From: Bacteroidota bacterium
GTDB lineage: Bacteria > Bacteroidota > Bacteroidia > Bacteroidales > JAAUTT01
Length of the DNA: 64,000 bases
Direction: 5' to 3'
Assembly: GCA_030706405.1 (NCBI GenBank)
Contig: JAUZOO010000006.1
Location: 248,001 to 312,000 of the forward strand
This document shows, piece by piece, positions 30,307 through 60,281 of this stretch; within the stretch, counting starts at the first letter, position 1, and each line of letters begins with the position of its first letter. A model generated the notes under the pieces. That model searched no databases. It saw only the letters and a program-made list of their open reading frames with translations, and was not told the origin of the DNA. A program made the position numbers and the translations under genes.

Positions 30307-30394
30307 CTATTCAGTGAAGAACGGATATGTATGAAATTTTTATTGTTAGTAAGTAGTTAAACCTTCGTCCTGGCGCGATACCCCGACGGATTTT
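30307..30394 (+). ncRNA. Structured intergenic element, copy A
   Basis: Between the CHRD lipoprotein and the giant gene. It contains CTATTCAGTG (30307-30316), AAATTTTTATTGTTAGT (30334-30350), then a hairpin TTCGTC/GACGGA (30364-30369 and 30385-30390) with loop CTGGCGCGATACCCC, and T-rich sequence after it. Copies B and C keep loop and flank but change the stem with compensation. The ATG at 30331 opens a nine-codon frame (MKFLLLVSS) ending just before the hairpin, as in attenuators, but copy B lacks that ATG. Confidence 0.5.
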
Positions 30395-30527
30395 ACAGAT
30401 TTTTGTTTTTTGAAGAGTTGAATGATAGGTCTTTATAATAAAAATACTAATTCAAATTATCTGCTTATTCATGTATATCAGAGAATTTATTTCGGGCGGA
30501 TAAAACTAACTTATACCTAACTATCAC

Positions 30528-33500
30528 ATGAATTTTATGAAAAAAATAATTGTCGCTTTATTGCTGTTTATTATGGGGATATCCCCGACAATAATAGCAC
30601 AAACTTTTGTGCATCCGGGCGTACCTTTTACCGCATACGACCTGGCCCAATTGAAGGCCAACATTACCAAAGAACCTTGGCTTACAGGGTACAATGCTCT
30701 AAAGAACGATCCAAAATCACAACTCACCTATGGAATGCAGGGCCCCTTTGCCACAGTAACGCGAGCTCCTAATTTAAACAACGCTCAGTGGATTAGTGAT
30801 ATGCAGGCTATTCATAACCTTACGTTTATGTGGGTATTTACAGGCGATGCTGCTTATGCCCAAAAAGCTACGGACATGCTGGATGCCTGGGCTGTTACCA
30901 ATACCACATGGGGAGGTGGAGAAAATAATCTGGATATTGGCGATCAGGTAACTTATCTTGTACCTGCGGCAGATATTTTAAAAAGCATGTTTTCTGGCTG
31001 GACAGCCGCCAATACTACTCACGTAAACAATTATTTTGCAAACGTATTATACCCAACCTCATGGGTTCCGAACCCGCTAAGAGATCATAACAAAGGAGCC
31101 TTACAGCTGAAAATAGCCCTTAGTATAGCAGCCTTTTTAGACGACCCCATCAAATTTAACCAAGCCATTGAAGTGTACCGTATGGATGCCGGAGGTGGGC
31201 TGCGTAACAGCTTACCTAACGGAGAGGTCGCTGATGCAGGTCGCGACGACCACTGGAATGGACAAATTCAGGCTCTGGGGTGGGGGGCTGAGGTTGCCTT
31301 TAAACAGGGGGTAGACATGTTTGCCGAACTGGATAATCGCATGCTTGCTATTGGTGAATTATACAACCATTATAGCATGTACCCGGGCGACTTGACATAT
31401 ATCCCTTTGGGCGGATATTCAACATATTATACCACTTGGGGAATTACGCCGGGTTACAGACATAACGAGTTGCCTCTTAACAATATTATACATACAGCAT
31501 ATTCACTCCGCAAAGGAATTCCAACCCCCTATACCGATGAGATGCTCACAAAAGACAAACCAAGTGCTCTGTCCTTTTTGTATTTAAAGTCCTCCGACCC
31601 CTCCACGGCAACAGCCTTAACGCCGATTGTATATCCGGCAACCCTTGCTCAGCCTGTAAGCTATCTAAGCAACATGGATATAGGCAATACAGGAATCATC
31701 GGAAATGCCAGTTACAATGCTGGGACTTGGACTGCACAAGGAGCCGGAAATTCGGCCGCCAATGCAGCCAATTATACCTTTAAGCCTATTAAGGGTGATG
31801 TTGGAATGGTCGTTAGAGTGATGAATAATTCGATCAGTTCGGCAACTTCGGGGCTTATGATCCGCGAATCACTCTTGCCTACATCGAACTATGTATCCGT
31901 AAATCTGAGCGGAGGAGTTGTGACATCTAGTGCGCAAGGGCAAACTGCACAAACAAATGGCACTCACTACATCTCCAAAGCGCCATGGTGGCTCAAAATT
32001 GAACGCGTAGGAAACAGAGTATTTACCTATCATTCGCAAGACGGGGTAAACTGGAGTAATAACGCCTTGTTTATTATGACACTGCCTACGGATGCCTACA
32101 TTGGCTTTTATACTATTTCCAATAATACCTCCGCTTTAAACACGGCTACTTTTACCAATGTGGCCATTAACAATACGTTTCCTGCAGGTTCGCCTGAAAT
32201 AAATAGTGCTACTTCGGACACGGTGGCTATAGGTGCAGTGTTTAATTATACGATTACAGCCGCAAATTCACCCACAAGCTTCAGTGCTAGTGGATTGCCT
32301 GCCGGTTTAACCCTGGATGCAGCTACCGGTGTTATTTCCGGTACACCGACTGCCCTTGGAACTAATGTGGTAACTTTAGGAGCAACAAACGCTAATGGAA
32401 CAGAAACTGCAACGCTGGTTATAACGGTAATCAACAATGTTGCGCCTGTTGTACCAGCCAGTTTAACGGCAAGTATTGTTAATACAACCAAAATTAAGCT
32501 TTCATGGACAGCATCGGCTAACGCTACCAGTTACACGGTAAAACGTTCTCTAACAGCCGGCGGGCCTTATACCTCAATACAATCCGGTATCACAGCGACC
32601 TCTTTTATTGATCCTAATCCGGTATATGAGGTTAACAATTATTATGTGGTAACCGCACTAACTGGTGAACAGGAAAGCGGGATATCCAATGAAGTTTCCG
32701 GATCGGTACCGCCTGAAATCCCTTCCAATCTTATTGCAAGCAGCAAAAGTGGGCAAGTTGATCTAAGCTGGAACGTAGCACAGGGAGCCCAGACATATCA
32801 GGTCAGCCGGGGAACAACCAGCGGGGGGCCATATACCGCAATCGCAACGGTTTCTACAAACAGTTACTCCGATACTAATGTTACCAATGGAAACCCTTAT
32901 TATTATGTTGTTGCTTCGTTGGGTAGCACCAAACAAAGCGCTAATTCGGCAGAAGTATTTGGGGTGCCGGGTTCGAACTCTGCTACATGGAGCCCGTCGC
33001 CAGCAGACTCTACCTGGAATTTGGCGGCTAACTGGGTTGAAGGCAACGTGCCGGCAACACCTGCAGTTATTACTTTCAACGCCTCGGCCGATACGGTTTT
33101 AAACAATAATATGACTGGCCTGGAGGTCTCAAGGATTCAGTTTAATGCTGGGGCAAATGCCTATAAAATTGCAGGCAATAGTATAGTATTAAGGAACGAC
33201 CTTGTTAATAATTCTTCAAGGGGCGACTCCTTAACTATGCCGTTGGTGTTAAACAGCCAGTTGAATGTAAACGCGAATACAAATTCTGTAATACTTTCGG
33301 GCATTATAAGTGGTACAGGCAGCCTTCTGAAAACCGGCCCTTCTGCACTTTATATGTCAGGAGCCAATACGTACTCCGGCAATACAACTATTAACGGAAC
33401 AGTAGGTTATAAATGGGGGTCTATGGATGGTATCATCGTGTCCGGCGATGGTACCGGTACTGTCGGGGCGCCTACCGCCGGGCCTTTAGGTACAGGTAAA

Positions 33501-36500
33501 ATTATCATGAATGGCGGCTCCATAATCAGCAGTTTTAACGGAGTTGCTACAACCCTTTATAACGATATTGAAGTTACTGCCGGTAAAACCAGTTATATGT
33601 ATGAACGTTCCGGCAATCTTAATATCCGGGGAAGACTTACTGGTGGAGGCACTTTGATAAATGATGGTTCCGATAATTTTTCCGCTTTAAACCTTTATGC
33701 TGATAATAGTTCATTTACAGGGACTTTTGTTTCAAAACTGCGAAGCGGTCAAATGCGTGTATGTTTTGCAGTGCCGGAGGCAGGAAGTGCCAATGCAAAT
33801 TGGCTTTTAGATGCTAATGGTATCGATTGTCATCCCATAAGGTTTACAACCGGAACCCTGAATTTTGGGTCGCTTTCAGGAAGAGGGTATTTTCGCACGG
33901 ATGTCAATGGTACCCCGCTTATTAGTATTGGAGCCTTAAATACCTCCACCAATTTTGGAGGAACTTTTGCTGAAACAGGTACTGCTGTAACCAGCATTGA
34001 GAAAGTCGGCACTGGGACTTTGACGTTTTCGGGAAATAACAATTACAAAGGCAATACAACCATCAAAAATGGCACATTCCTTTTGAGTAATGATGCGGTA
34101 AGTGGCGTTTTTGTCAGTCCTATTGTTGCTAATGCTGGCGCTTTGGGCGGTACTGGCAGAAGTTCTGCAACTGTAACGATAGGAACAGGATCAGGTGCCG
34201 GCGCATCGTTTGTGCCTGGCACAGATGGTACCATAGGCAGATTTACCACAACGGCATTAGTTACGTTAAATAGTGATGCAACTTATAAAGTAGATATCGA
34301 TAGTAATACCGGCGCTTCCGATACAATCGTTGCCAACGGAATCACCCTCAATAGTGCAATTCTTTCAGTTGCTAAATTGGGTACTACTGCTCTTGCTACT
34401 GGTTCAAAATACAGGATTGTTAAAAATACCAGTTCTTCAGCCGTAACAGGAACATTTAAAAATTTGCCTGAATTTGCTATTGTTACCATTGATGGAATTG
34501 ATTTCAGAATAACTTATAGAGGCGGAGATGGTAATGATATTGAGCTTTTGGATGACCGAACTATTACTAAAGTAGTACCCTCTTCTCCTGCTAATCTATT
34601 GGCTACGGGAATATCCAGTACAAGCGTAAATGTTAAATGGCCAAAATCTCCGTCTTCTGAGTATGTGACAAGTTACACACTAAAGAGGTCATCTACAGAT
34701 GGCGGTCCGTACACTGTTGTGGCTGCGAATTTAAATGACACCAGTTATCTGGATAAGAACTTAGCTATCAACACCATTTATTATTACGTCGTTTCGGCAA
34801 CGAACTATCTTGGTGAAGGTGCAAATTCTGTTCAGGACAGTGCCAAAACATTGATTCCGAATATACCGCCAGTGCCAACTGGTATAATCTCAGCGGCTGG
34901 TGATGCAAAAATCAGCCTAAGTTGGGGAGCCGCTCTTGAAGCCGTTAGTTATAATATCAAGCGGTCGTCCGCGAGTGGGGGGCCATATACAACTGTTGCG
35001 TCTAATGTTACCGCAACCTCTTATACCGATAATACTGTTGTTAACGGTACTACTTACTATTATGTAATATCCTCTGTTAACATTGCAGGTGAGTCTGCAA
35101 ATTCTGTTGAGGTTAGCGTAACTCCGGCTACAGGAGGCTATAGTTATTGGCCATTCAACGAAACCAGTGGCGTTACAGCCAATGATGTATGGGGGGCGCG
35201 TAACGCCACGCTGAATGGGACAGGTGCTACCTGGACTACCGGGGTTTCCGGTAATGGGCTCCATCTCGACGGTACAGCCACCGGCTATGCGACCTTACCC
35301 TCAGGCATTGTCAGTACCTTAACTGGCGATTTTACAGTGTCTGCCTGGGTGAAGTTAGATGCCCTGCAAAATAATCAGCGCATCTTCGACTTTGGAACAA
35401 GCAGTACCAATTACATGTTTCTGTCGCAGAATACAGCGACGACGATGCGCTATGCAATTAAAGTAGGAAGCGGTACCGAACAGGGGGTAACCTCCGGTAC
35501 TCTTTCTCTGTCCACAGGTAAATGGGTTCATGTGGCTGTGACGCTTTCCGGGAGTACTCACACGTTGTACGTAAACGGAGCTGTAGTCGCAACCAGTACA
35601 GGTATAACCTTCAGGCCATCAGGGCTGGGAAGCACTACTCTGAATTATTTTGGTAAGTCGCAATTCTCAGCCGACCCCTTGTTGAAAGGTTCGTTGGATG
35701 ATATACGCATCTATAACCGTGCTCTGAGCGCTTCGGAAGTTTCTTCTGTCGTAAGCGCTACAGCCCCGGCATCGACTGTACTGACAGGTAATTCTGTTGC
35801 CAATCAGCCATCGCTCACCTGGACTGCTTCGTCCCAAGCAACAGGATACAATGTCAAGCGAGCAACAGTTGCCGGCGGCCCTTACATCGTTGTCGCATCC
35901 AATATCTCTGCAACTGCGTACACTGATGCTACCGCCACTTTTGGCTCTTATTATTATGTGGTTACTTCAGTTGCGGGAGCGTTCGAGGGTGTACCATCAA
36001 ACGAGGTTTCGGTGGTGTTGTTGCCTGCAATTCCCACCTCGCCCATTGCAACGGGATGGAACAATCGTACAGATATTAGTTGGACGGCCACGAGCGGAGC
36101 AACAAGCTACGATATCAACCGCGCCACTGTGAGCGGAGGCCCATATACTGTAGTTGCAAATGTTTTGTCCGCTGCAACCCTGTTCTATAACGATGCTATG
36201 GCGGCTAATGGAACGACCTATTATTATGTTATCTCTGCAAAAAATGCAGCAGGTTCCGTAAATAGTACTGAAGTTAGTGTTACTCCTGTTAGTGATCCGG
36301 TGGCAAATGTTTGGTCTCATCAGGATATTGGCTCAAATGGAGTTGCGGGTAATGGGGGCTTGGTTGCCGGCACCTATTCTCTTTGGGCTTCTGGTGCCGA
36401 TATTTGGAGTAATGCAGATGCTTTTCAGTTTCTATATCAGCCATTCAATTCGGATGGAGCGATTGTTGCACGTGTGCTGAATATTCAAAACACCAATACG

Positions 36501-38705
36501 TCTGCCAAAGCTGGTATTATGATGCGCGAGACGCTGACTGCAGGTTCACGACACTGCCTCTTGGGTTATAGACCCAGTAGTTCTGTTGAATTTGTTCGTC
36601 GCCTTACTACAGGAGGTTCGAGTACTTCCGAGGCTGTTACCAGCCTAACCTCGCCACAATGGGTAAAACTGCTACGCATAGGCACCTCGTTTACATCTTA
36701 TCGTTCGGTCGATGGGATTACCTGGACGCAGGCAGGTACGACTCAAACGATTTCCATGGCGACCTCGATGTATGTCGGCTTAGCTTACACCAGTCACGTC
36801 AATACAACGCTCGGCAAAGCCCAGTTCGACCATGTCAATATTGCCGTTGCAGTTCCTGTGATTACAAGTGCAACAACAGGCGCAGGAACCGTCGGAATGC
36901 CTTTTACTTACACGATTGCCGCAACCAACACACCGTATCTTTATAGTGCTACCGGACTGCCCGCCGGCCTCACCCTCAACGCCGATAACGGGGTTATTAG
37001 TGGTACACCAACTGATACCGGCACATTTCCGGTGAATGTAAGTGTAGTAAATGCGATGGGTACAGCCACAGCCACATTGACACTGAGTGTGTCAGCAGGG
37101 ACTAGTACATGGAACGGTACCGGCTCTTGGGGAGCTACATCCAATTGGTCATCAGGGATGTTGCCTCTGTCAGGTTCAAATGTCATTGTTCAAAGCGGGA
37201 CACTTAACATTGATCAAAGTGTAAATATTAAAGACCTGATAATGGAACCTTCGGCCAATGTTTCTATCGCCACAGGCAATAGTCTTACCACAACCGGTAA
37301 CCTGACCTTAAAATCCGATGCAACCGGAACAGCCTCACTTATTAATAACGGTACACTAACCGTAAGCGGAATATCATCTGCACAGCGTTATATGACTGGA
37401 GGTAAATGGCATATTGTGTCGCCAATAGCGGGCGCAGAAGGTGTTGCTACGTTTGTTCAGGATGCGGGGAATGCTATTCCTGTAAATGGAGCAAATTATG
37501 CTATGATGGACTATGATGAACAGGGTAATGCCTGGAATGCCTATTTTACAGCATCTACATCCGGATCTTTAGTTTCCGGGAAAGGCTATTGCGTTCGCCG
37601 CAGCAGCGATGGTGTAGCGACCTTCACCGGAGCCTTGACAAGCGGAAATCTGACTGCCAGCTTGACTCAAAACGGATATGGTTGGAATTGTATTGGCAAC
37701 CCGTACCCCTCGTCCATTAATATTAACGACGGAAGCAGTTCGTTCCTTACGGTAAATGCAAGCAATCTCGATGCTAATTACGGTGCTGTTTATCTTTGGG
37801 ATGAGCAAGCCGATTATACCGGCAACCGAAGTGATTACAAGGTAATAAGCAATGCCGGGTTCTCGTTCCCGAGCGACCGGGTACTTTTACAAAATTATAT
37901 CACTTCAGGACAAGGGTTCTTTGTAAAAGCAGCTTCGGCGGGTTTAGTAAACTTTACCCCTGCAATGCAATCGCACCAAAACGGTATAATGCTCAAAGCA
38001 AGCCGAGTGTCATGGCCCGCCATACGTTTGAACGTGACAGCCGGAGGTAATACAGCTTCTACCGTGATTGCCTTTAATAGCGCCATGACCAAAGGTCTCG
38101 ACCCAACTTATGATGCAGGTTTATTACGCGGCACTTCCGGACTGAGCCTCTACTCGCACTTGGTAAACGACAATGGAACAGACTTCGCTATACAGTGCCT
38201 GCCTGATAATCTGTACAATTCGTTGTCAATTCCGCTGGGAATTGATAGCAAAAATGGTGGAGATCTTACCTTTAGCGCAGAATCGGTTGAGTTGCCAGTG
38301 GACTGCAACGTTACCCTGGAAGATAAAGTAACCGGCACCTTTACTTCTTTATCAGCAGGTAATACATATACCTCTACAGTTGCCCCAGGGACTACGGGCA
38401 CCGGACGGTTTTATCTGCATGCTGTCAGTAATTCAACAGCAACTTCTATTCCCGGGCTATTAGCCGGTCAGGACGATCAAGTCGTGAAGGCGTATGGAAT
38501 TCGTAAAACGATCTATATTAAAGGAAATCTCAATGAAGCCAGCGTCGTTCTGTATAACCTTAACGGAAAATCGTTAAAAATATATAAACTCTCGGGTAAT
38601 GGCTCCTCAACACTTAACGAAAACAGCGTGGCTAGCGGCTCTTACATAATCCGCATTGTAAATGAGGGCAAAGAGTATTCGTTCAAAGTTGTGTTGATGG
38701 ATTAG
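30528..38705 (+). CDS. Giant multidomain alginate-lyase-family protein with T9SS tail
   Basis: A 2725-aa secreted protein. Order: signal peptide (about 1-25), alginate_lyase-type (alpha/alpha)n catalytic domain (about 26-370) with DHNKGALQLK and the motif DAGRDDHWNGQIQALG, a DUF1349-like sandwich (375-545), putative Ig domain (550-640), two FN3 repeats (642-820), a beta-helix with autotransporter-type repeats (825-1345), two FN3 (1350-1535), a LamG/concanavalin-like domain (1536-1745), two FN3 (1746-1921), a second DUF1349-like domain, a second putative Ig (2112-2190), a further beta-rich region, and a type A T9SS sorting domain (about 2650-2725: VVLYNLNGKSLKIYKLSGNG, ending SFKVVLMD). It is therefore exported and probably anchored on the surface. 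The catalytic domain is related to PL5/PL38-type uronate lyases; substrate uncertain. Confidence 0.85.
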   Translation: MNFMKKIIVALLLFIMGISPTIIAQTFVHPGVPFTAYDLAQLKANITKEPWLTGYNALKNDPKSQLTYGMQGPFATVTRAPNLNNAQWISDMQAIHNLTFMWVFTGDAAYAQKATDMLDAWAVTNTTWGGGENNLDIGDQVTYLVPAADILKSMFSGWTAANTTHVNNYFANVLYPTSWVPNPLRDHNKGALQLKIALSIAAFLDDPIKFNQAIEVYRMDAGGGLRNSLPNGEVADAGRDDHWNGQIQALGWGAEVAFKQGVDMFAELDNRMLAIGELYNHYSMYPGDLTYIPLGGYSTYYTTWGITPGYRHNELPLNNIIHTAYSLRKGIPTPYTDEMLTKDKPSALSFLYLKSSDPSTATALTPIVYPATLAQPVSYLSNMDIGNTGIIGNASYNAGTWTAQGAGNSAANAANYTFKPIKGDVGMVVRVMNNSISSATSGLMIRESLLPTSNYVSVNLSGGVVTSSAQGQTAQTNGTHYISKAPWWLKIERVGNRVFTYHSQDGVNWSNNALFIMTLPTDAYIGFYTISNNTSALNTATFTNVAINNTFPAGSPEINSATSDTVAIGAVFNYTITAANSPTSFSASGLPAGLTLDAATGVISGTPTALGTNVVTLGATNANGTETATLVITVINNVAPVVPASLTASIVNTTKIKLSWTASANATSYTVKRSLTAGGPYTSIQSGITATSFIDPNPVYEVNNYYVVTALTGEQESGISNEVSGSVPPEIPSNLIASSKSGQVDLSWNVAQGAQTYQVSRGTTSGGPYTAIATVSTNSYSDTNVTNGNPYYYVVASLGSTKQSANSAEVFGVPGSNSATWSPSPADSTWNLAANWVEGNVPATPAVITFNASADTVLNNNMTGLEVSRIQFNAGANAYKIAGNSIVLRNDLVNNSSRGDSLTMPLVLNSQLNVNANTNSVILSGIISGTGSLLKTGPSALYMSGANTYSGNTTINGTVGYKWGSMDGIIVSGDGTGTVGAPTAGPLGTGKIIMNGGSIISSFNGVATTLYNDIEVTAGKTSYMYERSGNLNIRGRLTGGGTLINDGSDNFSALNLYADNSSFTGTFVSKLRSGQMRVCFAVPEAGSANANWLLDANGIDCHPIRFTTGTLNFGSLSGRGYFRTDVNGTPLISIGALNTSTNFGGTFAETGTAVTSIEKVGTGTLTFSGNNNYKGNTTIKNGTFLLSNDAVSGVFVSPIVANAGALGGTGRSSATVTIGTGSGAGASFVPGTDGTIGRFTTTALVTLNSDATYKVDIDSNTGASDTIVANGITLNSAILSVAKLGTTALATGSKYRIVKNTSSSAVTGTFKNLPEFAIVTIDGIDFRITYRGGDGNDIELLDDRTITKVVPSSPANLLATGISSTSVNVKWPKSPSSEYVTSYTLKRSSTDGGPYTVVAANLNDTSYLDKNLAINTIYYYVVSATNYLGEGANSVQDSAKTLIPNIPPVPTGIISAAGDAKISLSWGAALEAVSYNIKRSSASGGPYTTVASNVTATSYTDNTVVNGTTYYYVISSVNIAGESANSVEVSVTPATGGYSYWPFNETSGVTANDVWGARNATLNGTGATWTTGVSGNGLHLDGTATGYATLPSGIVSTLTGDFTVSAWVKLDALQNNQRIFDFGTSSTNYMFLSQNTATTMRYAIKVGSGTEQGVTSGTLSLSTGKWVHVAVTLSGSTHTLYVNGAVVATSTGITFRPSGLGSTTLNYFGKSQFSADPLLKGSLDDIRIYNRALSASEVSSVVSATAPASTVLTGNSVANQPSLTWTASSQATGYNVKRATVAGGPYIVVASNISATAYTDATATFGSYYYVVTSVAGAFEGVPSNEVSVVLLPAIPTSPIATGWNNRTDISWTATSGATSYDINRATVSGGPYTVVANVLSAATLFYNDAMAANGTTYYYVISAKNAAGSVNSTEVSVTPVSDPVANVWSHQDIGSNGVAGNGGLVAGTYSLWASGADIWSNADAFQFLYQPFNSDGAIVARVLNIQNTNTSAKAGIMMRETLTAGSRHCLLGYRPSSSVEFVRRLTTGGSSTSEAVTSLTSPQWVKLLRIGTSFTSYRSVDGITWTQAGTTQTISMATSMYVGLAYTSHVNTTLGKAQFDHVNIAVAVPVITSATTGAGTVGMPFTYTIAATNTPYLYSATGLPAGLTLNADNGVISGTPTDTGTFPVNVSVVNAMGTATATLTLSVSAGTSTWNGTGSWGATSNWSSGMLPLSGSNVIVQSGTLNIDQSVNIKDLIMEPSANVSIATGNSLTTTGNLTLKSDATGTASLINNGTLTVSGISSAQRYMTGGKWHIVSPIAGAEGVATFVQDAGNAIPVNGANYAMMDYDEQGNAWNAYFTASTSGSLVSGKGYCVRRSSDGVATFTGALTSGNLTASLTQNGYGWNCIGNPYPSSININDGSSSFLTVNASNLDANYGAVYLWDEQADYTGNRSDYKVISNAGFSFPSDRVLLQNYITSGQGFFVKAASAGLVNFTPAMQSHQNGIMLKASRVSWPAIRLNVTAGGNTASTVIAFNSAMTKGLDPTYDAGLLRGTSGLSLYSHLVNDNGTDFAIQCLPDNLYNSLSIPLGIDSKNGGDLTFSAESVELPVDCNVTLEDKVTGTFTSLSAGNTYTSTVAPGTTGTGRFYLHAVSNSTATSIPGLLAGQDDQVVKAYGIRKTIYIKGNLNEASVVLYNLNGKSLKIYKLSGNGSSTLNENSVASGSYIIRIVNEGKEYSFKVVLMD

Positions 38706-38728
38706 AGTACAGAACAATAAGGGAATGC

Positions 38729-38772
38729 GCAGAGGAACACAGAAGACGGAAATGAGTCTGTGTAACCTCTGC
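38729..38772 (+). other. Long imperfect hairpin between the giant gene and the 61-aa gene
   Basis: GCAGAGG (38729-38735) pairs with CCTCTGC (38766-38772), and inside it ACACAG (38737-38742) pairs with CTGTGT (38758-38763); the apical loop is 15 nt. The T-run after it is poor (TCTTATAAACTTTT), so it may stabilise the upstream mRNA or partly terminate rather than fully stop transcription. Confidence 0.45.
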
Positions 38773-38801
38773 TCTTATAAACTTTTAAACAAAAAATACT
38801 C

Positions 38802-38987
38802 ATGGAATCACAAGTAAATAAAGCACTTCCGACACAGGAAGAACCCAAAGAAAAAATAAGTCGGAAAGAAGCCCTTAAAAAGACTGGTTATATTGCTTTT
38901 TCGGCAGCAACAATGATGCTGTTGTTTAACAACCCGGCCAAAGCCCAGGCAGGAACATCGCCAGCACCACCGCCAGGCTCATTTTAA
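38802..38987 (+). CDS. 61-aa exported or membrane micro-protein downstream of the T9SS giant
   Basis: Reads MESQVNKALPTQEEPKEK, then ISRKEALKKTGYIAFSAATM and a hydrophobic stretch ending NNPAKAQA, then GTSPAPPPGSF. The layout (charged N-region, SRKEALKK, hydrophobic core, AQA) looks like a late signal peptide, with a Tat-like flavour but lacking twin Arg, or like a single membrane helix. If cleaved after AQA the mature part would be only 11 residues, Pro-rich. Follows the giant gene by 96 bp. I believe similar short proteins accompany large secreted proteins in other Bacteroidetes, but I cannot confirm that here. Function unknown. Confidence 0.6.
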   Translation: MESQVNKALPTQEEPKEKISRKEALKKTGYIAFSAATMMLLFNNPAKAQAGTSPAPPPGSF

Positions 38988-39432
38988 AGAATAATTATTA
39001 CCAGTCTATTCAGTGGTTTCTTTCTGAAATAGCTTAAAATTTTTATTGTTAGTTAAAGTGTTTTCCCCGTTCTGGAGCGATTCCCCAACGGGATTTTCAA
39101 GGAAAAGGAGTGCCATCTTATAAAGTGGGACATAATAAGGATGATTAATTAAACAAAATGACTGCGCTTTGTAGCGATATTGCAGCTATCTCTATTAGGC
39201 AGGCTTTACAAAATTAAGAGCAGATGATTGGATTTGTCGGAAATATTGTTTCAGCCGGAAGAGCTCCGAAAAAGACGCTTTATAACGTTGGCGGTAGAAC
39301 AAGCTGCCACAACTCCGGCATTTGGGATATGAATATTTTAAAAAAAGTATTGGTGTTTCGCATATATATTACATTATACCAGTTAAATAGCTAAATTATA
39401 TTTTTAAAAAATTTTAAAACAATTCGGTTATT
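38988..39432. other. 445-bp gap with structured element copy B
   Basis: Apart from element B (39006-39092) the gap has no supported gene. A long-range inverted pair GCCGGA (39254-39259) and TCCGGC (39314-39319) is present. The last 100 bp are very AT-rich and probably hold the promoter of the enzyme operon that begins at 39433, though no clear -7 box was found. Confidence 0.5.
39006..39092 (+). ncRNA. Structured intergenic element, copy B
   Basis: CTATTCAGTG (39006-39015) and AAATTTTTATTGTTAGT (39037-39053) are identical to copy A. The hairpin is CCCGTT/AACGGG (39066-39071 and 39087-39092) with loop CTGGAGCGATTCCCC. Relative to copy A the outermost and innermost stem pairs changed on both sides (T-A to C-G and C-G to T-A), and T-G became C-G, which is strong evidence for RNA structure. 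Confidence 0.5.
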
Positions 39433-42400: not shown

Positions 42401-42774
42401 GAGAAGGGCCGATTGCATTTCAGTGGAAAGGTTATTACTGGCTGATTATTGATACCTGGAATGGACAAACCGTGCATCGTTCGGTGGATGGAAATACCTG
42501 GACAGTTCAACCCGGCGGCCCTTTAATGCCGGATGATGAAGGCACGGGAAAAGATGATGTTCCAAACGCATTGCATGCTAATGTGGTAATTAGTAACGAC
42601 CGTGCCTATATGTATTATTTTACCCATCCCGGAAGAATCGGAGCTGATAAAAAGAAAGATACATACGAACAACGGCGCACTTCCATTCAGGTGGTGGAGT
42701 TGGAGCTGGACGATGCAGGCTGGATTACGGCAAACAGAAACAAACCTACCTATGTAAAAATGTCTCGGGAGTAA
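39433..42774 (+). CDS. Three-propeller glycoside hydrolase family 43-type fusion
   Basis: A 1113-aa exported protein (signal peptide to about residue 21). It holds three five-bladed propeller modules. Module 1 (about 22-300) has D34 in GDYPDPS and E184 in CLESPKV; it is followed by a DUF1349-like beta-sandwich (about 305-490). Module 2 (about 492-800) has D543 in MRDPFLM, NCWAPEM, and E714 in VEGPS. Module 3 (about 805-1113) has D815 in GAADPIV, EWAPDIV and E991 in GEGPIAF. Each module thus keeps an Asp base candidate and Glu acid candidate typical of GH43. GH43 enzymes are arabinofuranosidases, arabinanases, xylosidases or galactanases. A single chain with three such modules is uncommon. First gene of the enzyme operon, 20 bp before GH2. 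Exact activities unknown. Confidence 0.85.
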   Translation: MIRSALLLIVMFIFQNCLFAQDYPKVILRGDYPDPSIMRDGENYYMTHSPFVYSPGFLIWHSKDLINWEPICRALVGHTGSAMAPDLLKYNNRYYIYYPAAGTNWVIWADNIRGPWSKPIDLHVTGHIDPGHSVGEDGRRYLHVNDGYIVPLSGDGLSVAGKPEKIYSGWEYPKSWIAECMCLESPKVIKKGDYFYMTTAEGGTAGPATSHMVVSARSKSIRGSWENSPYNPIAHTYSADERWWSKGHGTIIDDVNGDWWMVFHAYENGAYTLGRQTLLQPIQWTKDGWFYADNKAKSIEPKGDSIKHGMKLSDDFQGKALGLQWTTWQNFDINNVFLKKGSLYMKGKGTNPKDAQLLLTTATDKNYDIQVEITVKKGSVGGLILFYSEKAFAGVSSDGNQFTIYENAEKQTTRPNKLGNHFFAKVLNAKNICSILVSKNKQNWDTICSGLDVSDMHHNKYHRFFALRPGLMAAGNGEVKFNDFEYKPQQGYLFAYFTDKNANRNGMHLAWSRDGYQWTKIGDEYSFLKSDYGDQDKDKRMRDPFLMKGADGLWHCLWTINWNINTIGHSTSADLIHWTSQQTIPVMEGYEARNCWAPEMIYDDKSQRYIIFWSSTIKINSEWKVEPGYKYDNRIYYTSTKDFRTFAPAKLLFDPGHNVIDATVNKTGSKYFMVYKNESELPTPQKNLFVAVSDNAEGPYKKLSDKSFTKNWVEGPSINQLPNNSFLVYMDSYKDKRYEAKRTRDFKVWEDVSDKVSLPTGAKHGSVVSVPMDFIDDVIFDQKRAEQEVTKQASKEGVIAPKPVFRDPVYDGAADPIVIWNPQVKKWWMYYTNRRATMTELPGVSWVFGTPIGIAESTDGANWKYAGVANFPDLPAECGGKDVTEWAPDIVLGDDGKWHMYLSVVPGIDTKWGLPGFIAHLTSANLRDWKYERRLSQLGTRVIDSDILKMPDGIWRMYYKDQTKYSHINVTESKDLYNWSEPKEALRINGEGPIAFQWKGYYWLIIDTWNGQTVHRSVDGNTWTVQPGGPLMPDDEGTGKDDVPNALHANVVISNDRAYMYYFTHPGRIGADKKKDTYEQRRTSIQVVELELDDAGWITANRNKPTYVKMSRE

Positions 42775-42779
42775 CTTAA

Positions 42780-47954: not shown

Positions 47955-47992
47955 TAGATCTTAATTGTACAATATGCTCTTATTAATTTGAT

Positions 47993-50566: not shown

Positions 50567-50582
50567 TAATTAAATAAGAAAT

Positions 50583-53045: not shown

Positions 53046-53125
53046 AGTGTTGAAAACGTAAGTGTTGGAGTTTTTTACATCATAAATCTGAATCAATAGT
53101 TCAAGTTTAATTATATTAATAAATT

Positions 53126-54586
53126 ATGAAACAAATAGTAAGAATGCTTCTGGTAATTATTATTGTTTTTTTTACCACGTTAGGAGCGATTGCCCAAAAA
53201 CTTGTAATACATCCGGCATCCGACAGCATTCCTCATAATAACGATTTTACGGTGAAAGTACGCGTGCCGGGCGGAAAGTGGCAGGACTTGTTTGAGTACC
53301 AGGCTCAGGTGGACATGCATAACGTACGCAATACCTCGATGGTAAACTTCGATTTTGAAGGATCGGTTGAGGTTTCCGTAACCTATAATAAAGGAACTAT
53401 TCAAACCGCCAGGATACGTCCTCTTTCCTATGATATTCATCCGCAGGTGAAAGGTAAAACCCTTACATTTTCACTATCTAAACCTTGTAATCTTTCATTA
53501 GAGGTTAATGGCGATATTTTTCACAATCTTCAAATATTTACCAATCCGCCGGAAACAAACAGGCCTGACCCCAAAGATACCGCTGTAATTTATCTTGCCC
53601 CCGGCTTTCACACCTTTAAAAACGGAGTATTGAATATCCCTGGCGGCAAAACACTCTATCTGGCTGGCGGCGCAGTTTTAAAGGCCTCAATCAGTTGCAT
53701 TAATGTTAAAGATGTGCGAATTTGTGGGCGAGGAATAATCTACCAGGCCAATGATGGGGTAGGAGTTAACTTTTCGGATAACGTCCAGATCGAAGATTTG
53801 ATTTTCATTAATCCTTCTCACTATACTGTATGCAGCGGCCAATCGAAGAATATTAAAATCAAAAATATCCGATCTTTTAGTTCAAAGGGGTGGAGCGATG
53901 GCATTGACTTGTTTTGTAATACAAATGTGCTGATAGACGGTGTTTTTATGCGAAATTCTGACGATTGTATTGCCATTTACTGCCATCGTTGGAAATTTTA
54001 CGGAGACTGCCGAAACGTAACTGTGCGCAATTCGACGCTTTGGGCTGATGTTGCGCATCCGATTTTGCTTGGAACCCACGGAAATCCGGAGCCTGGGAAG
54101 GAAGAAACAATCGAAAATATTAGTTTTTCAAATATCGACATCCTGAATCAGGACGAGTTGCAGCTTGATTATCAGGGCTGCATGAGTATTAATGTCTCAG
54201 ATGGTAACCTGGCACGTAACATCCGGTTTGAGGACATCCGGGTTGACGATTTTGAGCGTGGACAATTAGTGAATCTGAGGGTTGCTTATAATAAAAAATA
54301 TGCCAAGGCCCCGGGGCGGGGAATCGAAAATGTTTATTTTAAAAATATTACCTATAATGGAAATCGTGCCAATACCTCAATAATTCAAGGTTACGACGAT
54401 TCCCGAACGATTAAAAATGTAGTTTTTGAAAATTTAACAATTAATGGTACGGTTATTTCGAGTCAGACCGTAAAACCGGGTTACATGCAGCTTGCTGATC
54501 TAGCAAATATTTTTGTTGGCACGCATGTAGAAGGTGTTGAATTTAGGGCTGTTAATGATAAACCTGAAGTCGATACTGCGAAATAG
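53126..54586 (+). CDS. GH28/GH49-type beta-helix glycosidase
   Basis: A 486-aa exported right-handed parallel beta-helix protein. After the signal peptide (to about AIAQ) comes a small N-terminal sandwich (about 25-150), as in GH49 dextranases, then helix coils. Candidate catalytic acids: D258 and D261 in WSDGIDLF, D279 and D280 in NSDDCIAIY, followed by LLGTHGN that fills the place of the G/SHG motif of GH28. These match clan GH-N, inverting endo- or exo-hydrolases. The N-terminal domain and the wording of the motifs favour a GH49-like subfamily over ordinary polygalacturonases, but the setting is pectic. Substrate open. Confidence 0.75.
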   Translation: MKQIVRMLLVIIIVFFTTLGAIAQKLVIHPASDSIPHNNDFTVKVRVPGGKWQDLFEYQAQVDMHNVRNTSMVNFDFEGSVEVSVTYNKGTIQTARIRPLSYDIHPQVKGKTLTFSLSKPCNLSLEVNGDIFHNLQIFTNPPETNRPDPKDTAVIYLAPGFHTFKNGVLNIPGGKTLYLAGGAVLKASISCINVKDVRICGRGIIYQANDGVGVNFSDNVQIEDLIFINPSHYTVCSGQSKNIKIKNIRSFSSKGWSDGIDLFCNTNVLIDGVFMRNSDDCIAIYCHRWKFYGDCRNVTVRNSTLWADVAHPILLGTHGNPEPGKEETIENISFSNIDILNQDELQLDYQGCMSINVSDGNLARNIRFEDIRVDDFERGQLVNLRVAYNKKYAKAPGRGIENVYFKNITYNGNRANTSIIQGYDDSRTIKNVVFENLTINGTVISSQTVKPGYMQLADLANIFVGTHVEGVEFRAVNDKPEVDTAK

Positions 54587-54680
54587 AAAACCAGACAAAT
54601 AATGTTGAAGTTGCAGGTATACATAATAGATAAGTTGTTTAATTCGATAGTGTTTTGATGAAACTATAATAAATTATTAG

Positions 54681-55886
54681 ATGATAATGAACAAATTTAT
54701 TTTATCCTTGACCTTATTTTTTGTGGTTGTTTTGGGTGCAAATAATCCCATTTCTGCGCAAAGTCAAGAATCTATTGACAATCCTCAAATTGCACCAAAA
54801 GCAATTAAGCCGGTAAATGGGAAAATATTCGTTCACCCCGGTATTCTTCATTCAAAGGCATCTCTGGAGCATATTTATGAAGTTGCAACAAAGAAAACGA
54901 TGCCGGAGTTCGGCTCTTATGAATTATTGAAAAATCACCCGTGTGCTAGTGCTCAATATACGATGAATGGTCCTTTTGCAGTTATTTCGCGCGACGGCCA
55001 ATATGCTTATACCAAAAGTAAGATGGAAGCCGATTTCAGCGCCGCTTATCTGAATGCGCTAATGTGGATTGCCACAAAAGATGAAAGTCATGCTAAAAAG
55101 TCATTGGAAATTCTGGGAGCTTATGCCGATAGCTTAAAGTTAATCCCGGCAACTAACGATGCGCCTCTTTTGGTTGGTTTGGAAGGAACAAAAATTGTTA
55201 ATGCGATGGAAATTCTTCGCTATACCTACAACGAAATAACGAAGGAACAAATGGAGAAGATAACCAAAATGATTACCGGCATTTTTCTTCCTATATGCGA
55301 AAAGTTTTATAATACTAAAGCCTATACAAACGGAAACTGGGGAGCTATAATTACTAAAATGTACATCTCGTCGGCGATATATCTCAACAACGAAATGATG
55401 TATAAAAAAGCGATCGACTTTTATTACAACGGAAATGACAACGGTACCATCCAAAATTACATCAGCGATTCTACCGGGCAAATCCAGGAAAGCGGACGGG
55501 ATCAGGGACATTCCCAGTTGGGAATTGGAGCCCTCGCAACCGTTTGTGAGATTGCCTATAATCAGGGCGACGATCTCTACAGTGCCTGTAATAACCGATT
55601 GCTTAAAGGGTTTGAGTATGTTGCCCGGTACAATTTAGGGGATGATAATATGCCCTTTACTACATGGAAAGATGTTACGGGTAAATATTCCGACTGGACC
55701 GTGATTTCTGATAAAAGCCGGGGGCATTTTATCCCGATTTATGAGATGGTTTATAATCATTATGTCCGAATTAAAGGTTTGTCGATGCCTTATACCGAAA
55801 AAGTTATTAAAAAGATCCGCCCCGAGGGTTATGACCGCGACCAACCGGCGTTTGGAACATTACTTTTTTACGGCACCGGAAAATAA
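54681..55886 (+). CDS. Alginate-lyase-family (PL5/PL38-like fold) secreted protein
   Basis: A 401-aa exported protein; ATGs at 54681 and 54687 both leave the signal peptide intact (cleavage near ISAQ). It has the alginate_lyase superfamily pattern: KIFVHPGILHSKASLEHIYE, NGNWGAIITKMYISSAIYL and ESGRDQGHSQLGIGALATV, then RGHFIPIYEMVYNHY. It is the stand-alone counterpart of the catalytic domain of the 2725-aa giant, which has FVHPGVPFTAYDLAQLKAN, KGALQLKIALSIAAFL and DAGRDDHWNGQIQALG. Such enzymes cleave uronate polymers by beta-elimination, including glucuronan for PL38. Here it probably acts on a uronate-containing plant polymer or oligosaccharide, not alginate. Confidence 0.75.
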   Translation: MIMNKFILSLTLFFVVVLGANNPISAQSQESIDNPQIAPKAIKPVNGKIFVHPGILHSKASLEHIYEVATKKTMPEFGSYELLKNHPCASAQYTMNGPFAVISRDGQYAYTKSKMEADFSAAYLNALMWIATKDESHAKKSLEILGAYADSLKLIPATNDAPLLVGLEGTKIVNAMEILRYTYNEITKEQMEKITKMITGIFLPICEKFYNTKAYTNGNWGAIITKMYISSAIYLNNEMMYKKAIDFYYNGNDNGTIQNYISDSTGQIQESGRDQGHSQLGIGALATVCEIAYNQGDDLYSACNNRLLKGFEYVARYNLGDDNMPFTTWKDVTGKYSDWTVISDKSRGHFIPIYEMVYNHYVRIKGLSMPYTEKVIKKIRPEGYDRDQPAFGTLLFYGTGK

Positions 55887-55923
55887 AAGCAATCGCTAAT
55901 AGAAACGAATTAAAATAATAACA

Positions 55924-57759
55924 ATGAATGCTAAAACATATATTTTTTTAACAGGGCTACTGTTAGTTGCCGTCGTCAACAGTTTCGGACAGGTAAAGAA
56001 ACCGGTTCGTATTGAGGCTCCCAACAAACAAACTTATATTGAATTGGGTACCAATAAGCAAGGGGAATTGCAATACCGTGTGTTTTATTCGGGACAGGAA
56101 GCGGTTACATGGTCAGAGTTGGGCCTTCAGGTAAATGGTATAACTGCCGGAGCGAAAACCGTGATAAAGGGCAAGGCTCAAAAGAATTACAATGAAAAAT
56201 TTGCATGGCCTTTAGGTGAGGATGATACGATTGTTAATAATTACAATGAAGTCAAATTCTCTTGTGCCTCATCCTCTTTGCAATTTAATCTTGTCGTACG
56301 GGTTTATGATGGCAGTGTTGCGTTCCGTTACGAGATTTTCCAACAAGTAGGTTTCCAGAACAGTAGTATTAGTAAGGAAAATACAACGTTTACTTTTGCC
56401 CAACCGTTTACCATTTACCAATATAACCAAGAGTCGGTATTTACACCGGTTGCACTGGATTCGTTGACGAAAACCTGCGATTTTCCGGCTACCCTTACCA
56501 ATGGTAATTTATTTATCAGCATAGGCGAAGCTGATAATGCAAATTATACAAAAGCGGAATTAAAAAAGGGCGATAAACCCAACAGCCTTGTTGTAGCTTT
56601 TGTGAGAGATAAAGAGGTAAAAGTGGGCGAAGCATTTCAGACGCCATGGAGAACAATAAGCATGTCAAAAACAGCGATTGGCCTGCACGATTATAGTAAA
56701 CTTTATTTGAAACTAAACTCAACCTCTCTAAAAGAAGTTCCGGCTTGGATAAAACCCGGAAAACTGATAAGAGCACAGTTAAACACCCAAAGCGGACTGG
56801 AATGTATCGACTTTGCGTCGAAACATAATTTTCAATACATCATGTTTGATGCAGGATGGTATGGCGCGGAATTTCGTTCAACTTCCGATCCTACTCTGGT
56901 CATTCCCCAAATTGATATGCCCAGAGTAATTCAATATGGGAAAGATAAGGGAATCGGGGTAATTCTTTATGTAAATTATGTTGGACTTAAAGCTAAGTTG
57001 GACACTATTCTTCCTCTGTATAAAAAGTGGGGTGTCAGTGGTTTTAAATTTGGCTTTGTCGATGGATTGACCCAAGGAGGCCTTACATGGCTGGTATCTG
57101 CCATCAAAAAAGTCAATGATTATGGTTTTATACTTGATATTCATGATAATTACAAACCCACAGGTTTAAGTAGAAACTATCCTGCGCTGCTTACCCAGGA
57201 AGGTATTCGTGGAGATGAGAACAGCCCGGATGCTTTTCACACTACAGTCTTACCTTTTACCCGTTTTTTAGCTGGCCCGGCCGATTTTACCTTTTGCTAT
57301 CCAAATGAAAAGAATAGTTTTAGCAAAAATCTTAAAGTCAGTAAAGCTCAGCAGCTGGCATTAACGGTTGTTTATTTTAGCCCCCTACAGTCTATCTTTT
57401 GGTACGGAAAGCCCACCGATTATACTAATGAAGCGGAAATAGAATTTTTCAACTATGTACCTACGGTTTGGAACGAATCTCATTATCTGGCAGGTGATAT
57501 TGGCAAGAATATCAGTGTTGCCCGACGTAAAGGTGATGCTTGGTTTGTTGGAAATGTAGCCGGGTTCGAAGACTGGAAAAGCAGCATTCAATTAAATTTT
57601 TTAACCCAAGGGAAAGTTTACACGGCTACTGTTTATGAAGACGACGGAGTGGGCAGCATTCGCAAAAGAATTGAAACCGTTAAAAAAGGAGAAGCCTTTT
57701 CCTTTGATATTAAAGCAAAAGGAGGTCAGGCTATTCTTATTCAACCCGTAAATAACTAG
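55924..57759 (+). CDS. GH97 alpha-galactosidase-type glycoside hydrolase
   Basis: A 611-aa exported enzyme: signal peptide (to about SFGQ), N-terminal beta-supersandwich (about 25-275), TIM barrel (about 280-520), C-terminal beta domain. D380 in GFKFGFVDG lies where retaining GH97 enzymes have their nucleophile; the inverting alpha-glucosidase SusB lacks it. E426 in LLTQEGIRGDE is the acid. This favours a retaining alpha-galactosidase-like activity over alpha-glucosidase. Calcium-binding Glu residues are expected in the loop regions. Would remove alpha-galactose (or beta-L-arabinopyranose) ends from side chains. 37 bp after the lyase gene and 19 bp before GH43_24. Confidence 0.9.
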   Translation: MNAKTYIFLTGLLLVAVVNSFGQVKKPVRIEAPNKQTYIELGTNKQGELQYRVFYSGQEAVTWSELGLQVNGITAGAKTVIKGKAQKNYNEKFAWPLGEDDTIVNNYNEVKFSCASSSLQFNLVVRVYDGSVAFRYEIFQQVGFQNSSISKENTTFTFAQPFTIYQYNQESVFTPVALDSLTKTCDFPATLTNGNLFISIGEADNANYTKAELKKGDKPNSLVVAFVRDKEVKVGEAFQTPWRTISMSKTAIGLHDYSKLYLKLNSTSLKEVPAWIKPGKLIRAQLNTQSGLECIDFASKHNFQYIMFDAGWYGAEFRSTSDPTLVIPQIDMPRVIQYGKDKGIGVILYVNYVGLKAKLDTILPLYKKWGVSGFKFGFVDGLTQGGLTWLVSAIKKVNDYGFILDIHDNYKPTGLSRNYPALLTQEGIRGDENSPDAFHTTVLPFTRFLAGPADFTFCYPNEKNSFSKNLKVSKAQQLALTVVYFSPLQSIFWYGKPTDYTNEAEIEFFNYVPTVWNESHYLAGDIGKNISVARRKGDAWFVGNVAGFEDWKSSIQLNFLTQGKVYTATVYEDDGVGSIRKRIETVKKGEAFSFDIKAKGGQAILIQPVNN

Positions 57760-57778
57760 ATTAAACGATACAATCAAT

Positions 57779-58768
57779 ATGAAATATTCTTTTTTAAAAC
57801 GACAATTACTCACGCTTAGTGTAGTTGCAATATCTACAAGTCTGTTTGCTCAAAAACAAAATATCATTCATCCCTGCGAAGTCTGGCCCGACGAAGATGG
57901 TAACCACATACAGGCACATGGCGGAGGTATTATCAAAATAAATAAAACCTATTATTGGTATGGCGAACAACGCGCAAAAGATTTAGATCCTCAATATCGT
58001 TATGTAAGTTGTTATTCGTCCAACGATTTGACAAACTGGAAATTTCGTGGTAATGTAATTAAAATGTTACCTCCTGACTCCCTGTCTCAAGGCTGGGTAT
58101 TGGAACGTCCAAAAGTTTACTACAATGTCAGAACAAAAAAGTATGTTATGTATTTTCACATTGACGATAAGGGATACAAGGTAGCCCAAGTGGGTATTGC
58201 TGTATGCGATAAACCCGATGGTGAATTTAAATTTGTGAAAAGATTTCGCCCGCTGGGGCACGAAAGTCGGGATATTGGCCAGTTTATCGACGATGACGGC
58301 ACGGCTTACTTAGTGTTTGAGGATCGCCCATATGGTTTTCGTATTGCCAGACTATCGGGCGATTACATGAATGTTGAAAAGGAAATGGCTCTTGTAAAAG
58401 CTCATATGGAAGGCGGAGCCATTGTGCATTACAACGGGCTGTATTATTCGATAGGCTCCGCCCTGACCGGATGGCGGGCCAATCCCAATAAATACTCAAC
58501 AGCACCTTCGCTCGAAGGTCCTTGGACGGAATTTAAAGATATTGCCCCTGCCGAAACCAATACCTATGGCTCGCAATCGACCATGCTTATAAAGGTTGTT
58601 GGTACTAAAAAAACCACGGTCATTTTTATGGGCGATATATGGAAGCCTAAAACACAGTGGGATTCCCGTTACTTATGGATGCCTTTGGAAATAGGCGATG
58701 GAAAATTATGGTTACCTAAACCTCAACCCTGGAAATTAAATATTAAAACCGGGAAAACTACATTTTAG
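57779..58768 (+). CDS. GH43 subfamily 24-like exo-beta-1,3-galactanase
   Basis: A 329-aa exported five-bladed propeller. Motifs: IQAHGGGIIKINKTYYWYGE near residue 43, VLERPKVYYN with E109, HMEGGAIVHYNGLYYSIGS with E211, and YGSQSTML with Q266. GH43_24 enzymes lack the usual Asp base and use a Glu as acid and a Gln as base; the E211/Q266 spacing of 55 residues fits that pattern. They release galactose from beta-1,3-galactan, bypassing beta-1,6 branches, so this gene points to type II arabinogalactan as part of the target. No CBM13 is attached. Last gene of the enzyme operon. Confidence 0.85.
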   Translation: MKYSFLKRQLLTLSVVAISTSLFAQKQNIIHPCEVWPDEDGNHIQAHGGGIIKINKTYYWYGEQRAKDLDPQYRYVSCYSSNDLTNWKFRGNVIKMLPPDSLSQGWVLERPKVYYNVRTKKYVMYFHIDDKGYKVAQVGIAVCDKPDGEFKFVKRFRPLGHESRDIGQFIDDDGTAYLVFEDRPYGFRIARLSGDYMNVEKEMALVKAHMEGGAIVHYNGLYYSIGSALTGWRANPNKYSTAPSLEGPWTEFKDIAPAETNTYGSQSTMLIKVVGTKKTTVIFMGDIWKPKTQWDSRYLWMPLEIGDGKLWLPKPQPWKLNIKTGKTTF

Positions 58769-58984
58769 ATAAACGAAGTCTTGGAAATAAGCTATCTGTA
58801 TAAGTTTTTTCAATATATTGAAAGCAAGGTTCTTAGCTTGTTTATTAGCTTTAAATGTCGGGGTCTTTTAATTTTCCGACACGTAATACGTCTCAATGCA
58901 GCCTTTGATACTTCCCAATGTAAGCGAAGTCTAAAACAATATTATGATTAATATTGCCAGCATTTTGAATTTAACTCTGCTTTT

Positions 58985-60049
58985 ATGAACCAACGAAAAC
59001 TATTATTGCAGCTTTTACCCGGATTTATTCCATTGTTCGCATTTATCATTGCTGATGAATTTTTTGGAACTACAATCGGTTTAATTATAGCTATTGCCTC
59101 TGGTGTCGTTGAATTAACCTGGTATTGGATCAAGGACCGGAAATTCGATAAATTTATTTTACTGGATACTTTACTCATCATTATTCTTGGACTGGTTTCT
59201 ATTATCCTTGAAAATGAGGTGTTTTTTAAAATAAAACCAGCATTGATAGGTGTTCTAATGTGTGCAATTCTAGGGGTTTCAGTATTCTCTCCAAACAATC
59301 TCCTTCTGAATATGTCAAAACGATATATGAAGGGGATGAAACTGAATGATTTGCAATACCGGCAGTTTCGTAAAAACATGAAAGTTATGTTCTGGCTGTT
59401 TTTAAGCTACACCGCCCTGGTGTTTTATTCCGTGTGGTTTATGAGTAAAGAAGCTTGGGCATTCATTAGCGGAGGCCTGTTTTACATATTATTTGGAGCC
59501 TATTTTCTTTTTGAAGTCATAAAAAACCGGCTTTTGCAAAGGAAACAAATGAAAGAGGAATGGCTGCCTTTGGTAAACGAGAACGGTGAAATTATTGGGA
59601 AAGCCCCCCGCAGCATTTGTCATTCTGATAAAAACCTGCTGCATCCTGTAGTGCATTTACATGTATTTAATAGTAAAGGTGAAATATATCTGCAAAAACG
59701 TCCCATGCACAAAATTCAACCCGGGAAATGGGATACTGCCGTAGGTGGGCATGTCGCCTTTGGCGAAGATATAGAAACCGGCTTAAAACGCGAGGCCTTG
59801 GAAGAACTTGGCATCGCGGATTTCAATCCCCAATTGGTAGCCAATTATATTTGGGAGTCGGATATAGAACGGGAATTGGTATTTTGTTTTATCGCGAATT
59901 ATAATGGGGCTATTACAATAAATAATGAGGAATTATCCGATGGGAAATTTTGGTCATACCCGGAAATAAATAGTTTCCTCGGTAAAGAAATTTTTACTCC
60001 AAATTTTGAAGAGGAATACCGTAAGATACTGTCAAAACAAAAAAGCTAA
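58985..60049 (+). CDS. YciB/septation-protein-A-like membrane domain fused to a NUDIX hydrolase
   Basis: A 354-aa two-part protein. Residues 1-185 have five or six hydrophobic helices (LLPGFIPLFAFIIADEFFG, LIIAIASGVVELTWYWIKD, KIKPALIGVLMCAILGVSVF) resembling intracellular septation protein A (YciB). Residues 195-354 are a NUDIX domain of the isopentenyl-isomerase/YfcD-like type, with LVNENGEIIGKAPRS and a complete Nudix box, GGHVAFGEDIETG then LKREALEELGI. The two parts sit in one uninterrupted frame. NUDIX enzymes hydrolyse nucleoside diphosphate derivatives; the substrate cannot be read. It stands 216 bp from the PUL and is not an obvious part of it. Confidence 0.8.
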   Translation: MNQRKLLLQLLPGFIPLFAFIIADEFFGTTIGLIIAIASGVVELTWYWIKDRKFDKFILLDTLLIIILGLVSIILENEVFFKIKPALIGVLMCAILGVSVFSPNNLLLNMSKRYMKGMKLNDLQYRQFRKNMKVMFWLFLSYTALVFYSVWFMSKEAWAFISGGLFYILFGAYFLFEVIKNRLLQRKQMKEEWLPLVNENGEIIGKAPRSICHSDKNLLHPVVHLHVFNSKGEIYLQKRPMHKIQPGKWDTAVGGHVAFGEDIETGLKREALEELGIADFNPQLVANYIWESDIERELVFCFIANYNGAITINNEELSDGKFWSYPEINSFLGKEIFTPNFEEEYRKILSKQKS

Positions 60050-60114
60050 TTAGGTCAACCTCAAAGGTTGTATCAATATAACACATCTTTTAACAACCTT
60101 TAACGTTCATTACA

Positions 60115-60144
60115 TTTCGTTAACATTACTTTACACTATGTTTG
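60115..60144 (+). promoter_or_regulatory. Candidate promoter upstream of element C
   Basis: TATGTTTG (60137-60144) matches the Bacteroidetes -7 consensus TAnnTTTG exactly; TTTCG (60115-60119) is 17-18 bases before it and is a fair -33 box. Transcription from about 60150 would reach the hairpin and T-run at 60251-60281, giving an RNA of about 130 nt. Confidence 0.45.
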
Positions 60145-60161
60145 TATCATCAAAACGTCCA

Positions 60162-60218
60162 CTATTGGACATCAAAAAAAGACAATAAAAAGACAAGCAT
60201 AGTTAGTAGTTTTTTCAT
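60162..60218 (-). pseudogene. Possible remnant of a signal-peptide-bearing gene
   Basis: On the minus strand an ATG at 60218 opens MKKLLTMLVFLLSFFDVQ and then stops at TAG (60162-60164). Such a Lys-Leu-rich start is typical of exported proteins, but no body follows. It may be a gene remnant or coincidence, since the AT-rich plus strand favours such codons. Confidence 0.2.
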
Positions 60219-60230
60219 ATTTAGGTTTGA

Positions 60231-60281
60231 TTGGTTAGTAATAGTTTAACGCCGGGCTGTAGTGATGCACCCCGGTTTTTT
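60231..60281 (+). ncRNA. Structured intergenic element, copy C, with terminator-like end
   Basis: TTGGTTAGTAATAGTTTAAC (60231-60250) resembles the flank of copy A, TTGTTAGTAAGTAGTTAAAC. The hairpin is GCCGGG/CCCGGT (60251-60256 and 60271-60276; outer pair G-T) with loop CTGTAGTGATGCAC, followed by TTTTTT. The loop shares CTG..G.GAT with copies A and B. Here the element looks like a full intrinsic terminator. Confidence 0.5.

Follow-up and report, generated by a model that had tools for sequence, protein, structure and literature searches.

In Bacteroides thetaiotaomicron, 14 paralogous FopS RNAs, filed in Rfam as RF04319, carry an unpaired 5′ part followed by a terminator. They bind the RRM protein RbpB and repress SusC translation near the start codon. 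The FopS RNAs respond to bile salts, possibly via an unknown regulator, one of them is 3′-end-derived, and their conservation has been reported within the Bacteroidaceae (PMC11697453). The DNA considered here is a stretch of 64,000 nucleotides from a Bacteroidota bacterium of the order Bacteroidales (contig JAUZOO010000006.1; hereafter the window, with coordinates on the forward (+) strand unless marked (-)). It contains three related hairpins, copies A, B and C. Copy C is best explained as the gene of a trans-acting sRNA, a FopS-like repressor of SusC translation and one of six paralogs, a reading to which we assign a probability of about 0.72.

A first-pass annotation had described the three copies as a structured RNA element with a covarying stem and a possible terminator function, and in this respect it holds up well. 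The stems lie where it had placed them (copy A, 30364-30369/30385-30390, TTCGTC/GACGGA; copy B, 39066-39071/39087-39092, CCCGTT/AACGGG; copy C, 60251-60256/60271-60276, GCCGGG/CCCGGT). Between A and B two pairs are indeed altered on both sides and one changes from T-G to C-G, and these two copies share CTATTCAGTG, aligning over 64 nt at 80 % identity (E 2e-6 in the window, 1e-5 in the genome). Further copies with compensatory changes, on which the annotation had made its proposal depend, are provided by the genome and the order. In a first set of 45 copies from the genus and the order, 93.4 % of the cells pair and 10 of 10 pairs show double-sided changes, compared with 36.5–57.5 % pairing in slid controls; in a second set, made up of 63 copies and sharing 3 with the first, the figure is 92.5 %, both alignments having been fitted to the structure so that the counts lean towards it. 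At least 5 T among 8 positions make up the tail of 41 of the 45 copies, and we read the stem with its “conserved loop” as an intrinsic terminator whose loop is not special. The loops comprise 37 GNRA tetraloops, 7 with one extra base and 1 other (n = 45). With 44 of 45 of GNRA type, the loop finds no support as a recognition element, contrary to the earlier suggestion that it is read by a protein, and the strong conservation resides instead in a 31-nt stretch ahead of the hairpin. Since the loop pattern, with one mismatch allowed, occurs near chance frequency in the window (6 seen, 3.19 expected; 8 of 100 shuffles reach as many), the loop carries no weight by itself. TAGTTAGTAG, considered as a mark of terminators across the genome, is found at 18 sites, the same number as its reversed control. 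An Rfam scan of the window returned nothing at the gathering threshold and three matches at E ≤ 5, none of them on the elements.

The three copies originally counted are all present, but a weaker one at 5725-5813 had been overlooked, and copy C is itself part of a unit of about 200 bp with six occurrences in the genome. Copy D, on contig C5, came to light in a pattern search, and sequence alignment places C and D in an intergenic block of 570 bp (60063-60632 for C) duplicated at 89 % identity. The gene after copy D has O-acetylhomoserine sulfhydrylase as its best NCBIfam match, under that model's cut-off. When the C/D stretch was compared by BLAST with 60 genomes, 4 further copies were obtained from the own genome; they cover about positions 21-222 of the query and hence end at the hairpin. 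Each of the six units consists of a TTTAAC-type repeat box, TATGTTTG (one base altered in D), a variable stretch, the core TTTTTTCANATTTAGGTTTGATTGGTTAGTA and the hairpin with its T-run. In copy C, the spaced [TG]TTAA pairs and the alignment of the paralogs point to a putative response-regulator site, possibly for RprY, formed by a TTTAAC-N4-TTTAAC box and a following GTTAAC (60089-60124). The TATGTTTG element at 60137-60144, kept in five of the six paralogs, we take to be a Bacteroidota -7 box on the basis of the consensus TAnnTTTG. An RNA start would be expected near 60150, which yields a predicted small RNA of about 135 nt (60150-60284), defined by the promoter-like sequence, the core and the terminator as they recur in the six paralogs. 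The 31-nt core, or seed (60210-60240), is constant at 30 of 31 positions across the six dispersed copies, amid an adjoining stretch that is variable. In the predicted fold of copy C, part of the core is base-paired, which speaks against the proposed reading, and the core is followed by the GC hairpin and T-run, i.e., the terminator with its GUGA loop (60251-60283).

A covariance model, R1, was built from the six own copies and those of two genomes of the same genus (G001 and G002), with A and B deliberately excluded and no FopS sequences. On the window it matches copy C, the new copy at 5725-5813 and, only at E 1.9, copy B; on the genome, at E ≤ 0.01, it finds the six copies at 85–100 bits and four weaker ones, one of which is that at 5725-5813. 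The latter, composed of UUAGUUAGUUAGUAG and a hairpin with a GAGA loop, scores E 8.8e-6 with R1 and E 1.3e-6 with a model trained with it, R2; its pairing with SusC start codons shows no clear peak (lowest z near the start -1.8).

Two other features were noticed near copies of the element. A palindrome, TACCTAAATTTAGGTA, occurs at 60404-60429, with one half eroded in C, and at four loci elsewhere (L035, L036, L039 and L044). It precedes cysJ-cysI in L035 (both over cut-off) and similar genes in L039, is also found in L044, and in D lies upstream of both the sulfhydrylase-like gene and one that resembles sulfite/nitrite reductases. It has the appearance of a sulfur-assimilation operator that was copied together with the rest of the C/D block. 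Near the C15 copy, the segment 745-825 (-) of L028 matches a group II intron just below the Rfam cut-off (38.7 versus 40 bits).

The core of copy C is antisense to the start-codon regions of SusC genes. Over 29 such regions (from 44 matches, of which 30 were fetched and one, L164, was dropped for an uncertain start), its mean pairing energy is -18.3 kcal/mol, compared with -12.7 for shuffled cores, 0 of 40 of which are as low. Elsewhere in the scan from -190 to +190, the largest deviations occur at +10 (z -4.6), in a window that adjoins and overlaps that of the start, and at -150 (z -2.9), where the smaller dip also lies under 40 of 40 controls. Neither the variable region nor the hairpin gives a peak at the SusC start codons. 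Pairing is stronger at SusC starts than at those of 100 further genes of exported-like type (-14.5; p 5.5e-6) and of 47 genes of neither kind (-12.8; p 6e-8), the two classes being separated by a crude hydrophobicity rule and the start codons chosen by one with a preference for M-K; SusC is still ahead when only genes whose second codon begins with AA are compared. Restricted to the leader, the effect is smaller (-12.6 for SusC, -11.1 and -10.5 for the others; p 0.010 and 0.001). Four of 31 start regions of window ORFs, one of the 31 (38803) being placed one base off, reach p ≤ 0.025. The leader and start of the SusC gene adjoining copy C (61393-61448) is a predicted target at -21.7 kcal/mol (p 0.010 against 200 shuffled cores).

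Searching instead for 18-nt near-complements of the core yielded 15 non-self sites, none of them over a start codon, where the reversed control yielded 14; one of the 15 (L144) is situated in a leader, 39 nt ahead of the ATG. Another leader that ranks with the best of the window's predicted targets (-20.6 kcal/mol) is that of a gene at 4240-5490 (-), which is divergent from the 5725 copy and encodes an exported-looking protein of 416 aa without a Pfam match. Occurrences of the core pattern in Flavobacterium luteum were rejected as an sRNA because they read as leaders, in sense orientation, of exported genes next to a SusD-like gene and are thus target-like. There, around 5435-5510 of L121, an exported gene adjoining a SusD-like gene is preceded by three leader-like units that resemble one another and are complementary to the core of the sRNA. 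A match to the core pattern in Acinetobacter is taken as chance.

At E ≤ 0.01, R1 has matches in 87 of the 295 genomes that represent the order, one of which carries as many as 14 copies. R2, applied to the phylum, gave matches at E ≤ 0.001 in 11 genomes out of 395, and 5 of these are outside the order. The first-pass annotation had recognised no named RNA family; the element is in fact homologous to FopS, though below the cut-off of RF04319. This Rfam model aligns end to end with the same-genus copies of G002 (34.4 bits) and G001 (30.7 bits), for a gathering cut-off of 56, whereas the own copies that it detects reach 19.0–21.3 bits and make up 3 of its 11 matches on the genome at E ≤ 10. Sixteen loci of the order, out of 20 picked and mostly top matches of R2, were scanned with RF04319: 11 are above the Rfam cut-off, L117 is below it with 36.8 bits, and L226, L253, L237 and L095 have no match at E ≤ 0.1. 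Since its copies score well under the cut-off, the own lineage is not a member of RF04319 by Rfam's rule, yet it is homologous to FopS and hence a relative. The family is thereby traced across the order, and a second lineage with a different layout is added to it. In another family of the same class (L190, L191 and L192), the hairpin stands right behind a stop codon and is preceded by TTAGGTTTGGTTAGTAATG or TTAGGTTTAGTTAGTAATG, which resembles the core's 3′ half but lacks the seed, as in A and B. The own genome encodes three RRM proteins, and the RRM of one passes the NCBIfam model Rbp_regulator; a protein of this type may also have a role here.

Copies A and B differ from copy C in several respects. 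Copy A (30307-30394) starts 44 nt past the stop of a CHRD-domain gene (29745-30263), copy B (39006-39092) 19 nt past that of a 61-codon ORF (38802-38987). What they have in common with the C family is the UUAGU flank and the hairpin; both are without seed and without promoter box (0 of 2 with [TG]TTAA pairs). The flank of copy A aligns to the C family with a local score of 31, above all 1000 shuffles (mean 16.9), while copy B alone gives no significant match in the shuffle test (p 0.11), and its own link to the family is weak. With R2, copy B appears in the window at E 7.7, and copy A is absent from the matches of both models up to E 10. Over the 29 SusC starts neither copy has a pairing peak at the start codon (lowest z near the start: A -2.2, A with short flank -2.6, B -1.8). 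We read A and B as truncated relatives that form the 3′ ends of the preceding genes. All the elements might likewise be no more than ordinary intrinsic terminators or mRNA 3′ ends, copied along with neighbouring DNA and devoid of any function in trans. This describes the seedless copies A and B well, placed as they are just behind stop codons, and the duplicated block that holds C and D is compatible with it. Applied to C, however, it is unlikely, given that the core has been kept in six dispersed copies amid varying neighbour bases, that it has a pairing peak at start codons and that it is homologous to an experimentally studied sRNA family.

Somewhat less probable still is the original proposal that the hairpins are cis-acting attenuators or regulated terminators in the leaders of the following genes, with a loop that is read by a protein. 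Genes on the same strand do follow copies A, B and C, at 137, 340 and 1154 nt, and the hairpins have the anatomy of terminators. However, copy C has a promoter-like sequence of its own, 1154 nt separate the end of its hairpin from the SusC start, the loop is generic with the conservation lying in the core, and the rprX-linked copy described below faces a gene on the opposite strand, so that it leads no mRNA there; neither of these two copies is located in the leader of a gene that it could control in this way. That the elements are remnants of coding sequence, as the similar reading of A and B in one frame (RPGAIPRR / RSGAIPQR) had suggested, can practically be dismissed, because this frame is open for 18 codons in A and 31 in B and has no start codon before the hairpin, the frame through the stem of C reads RRAVVMHPGFLL, and the stems covary.

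The copy on contig C4 diverges from the genes of a histidine kinase and a response regulator, the latter of which passes the NCBIfam RprY model. On its other side are an IPExxxVDY gene, an RNase III-like gene (under the model cut-off), fabF and acpP. The same gene order surrounds the rprXY copy in G001, G002 and G003; in G003 the locus has the box, the -7 box and the hairpin, and its copy is not among the four G003 matches of R1. Copies are also flanked by rprX and rprY in G077 and G180, which belong to one family, and in G085 from another (together with rnc, fabF and acpP), which brings the recognisable rprX-linked copies to six genomes of three families. Within flanks of about 1.5–2.1 kb, and in sets that partly overlap, rprX was seen at 3 of the 27 loci of a first set from outside the genus. 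A second set, of 23 loci, and a third, of 60, yielded none; each of these two has a single generic kinase match, that of the third lying at L218 (27 %). The link to rprXY is real but not general.

Upstream [TG]TTAA pairs spaced by 10 or 11 bp are found in all 6 own copies that bear the seed (4 % expected from shuffling), 2 of 3 same-genus copies, 3 of 3 other rprX-linked copies and 5 of 33 other copies of the order (2.5 % expected), and in 0 of 4 weak own copies, all counts being partly fitted to the data in that this relaxed form was adopted after the strict one had failed. None of the 12 copies that make up the own and rprX-linked sets has the strict TTAAC-N6-TTAAC box, their spacing being 10. 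In the open-licence literature, no title or abstract was found that links RprXY to FopS-type RNAs, and “rpr” is absent from the main text of PMC11697453.

If copy C is indeed the gene of a FopS-like sRNA, its mode of action can be sketched as follows. A promoter with the TTTAAC-type box would direct the synthesis of an RNA of about 135 nt, and transcription would end at the GC-rich hairpin with its GNRA-type loop. The 31-nt core would pair with the start-codon region of mRNAs for SusC-type and some other exported proteins and thus block their translation. RprY, to judge from the copy divergent from rprXY, may switch the whole family, in which case envelope stress would lower the making of outer-membrane importers. 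A and B, as seedless truncated relatives, would form the 3′ ends of the genes that precede them. FopS-type repression of SusC is already known from gut Bacteroides and the new idea is control by RprY; RprXY is a candidate for the regulator that PMC11697453 calls unknown. A wider reading, which we put forward tentatively and hold to be possible without being probable, is that an sRNA gene divergent from rprX was the ancestor of the FopS superfamily. In that case RprXY would supply the missing switch of transcription: an envelope-stress system of the OmpR type would silence SusC importers by way of a multicopy antisense RNA, in a phylum that has been described as devoid of the classical RNA chaperones. 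On the same assumption, A and B would be mRNA 3′ ends that keep the UUAGU-terminator half, and one may speculate that they act as decoys for the same RNA-binding protein. If true, this would tie envelope stress to the post-transcriptional control of glycan uptake in Bacteroidota.

In enterobacteria, the sibling sRNAs OmrA and OmrB are under the control of OmpR. They offer an analogy only, in that both systems combine sibling sRNAs, an OmpR-family regulator (proposed in the present case) and outer-membrane targets; the phylum and the set of chaperones are different. OmrA and OmrB are also named in PMC11697453. The consensus of BTnc231 (Rfam RF04180), with its start UUUUUUUCAUAGAGAUUUAGA...GGUUAGA and a GUGA-type hairpin, resembles the core, but the G002 copy scores 20.7 bits against a cut-off of 80.4. 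Compared with FopS, as described in PMC11697453, the predicted RNA is longer (about 135 nt versus the reported ~65–70 nt). The box and the -7 box lie about 70 nt upstream of the core (-7 box at 60137-60144, core from 60210), whereas the FopS promoter directly precedes the seed, and one copy here adjoins rprXY. Like FopS of B. thetaiotaomicron, on the other hand, the family consists of multicopy paralogs with a conserved UUUUUCAU...GGUUA core ahead of a terminator hairpin, this core is antisense (here in silico) to SusC start regions, and, just as one of the FopS RNAs is 3′-end-derived according to that source, copies A and B appear to be 3′-end-derived as well.
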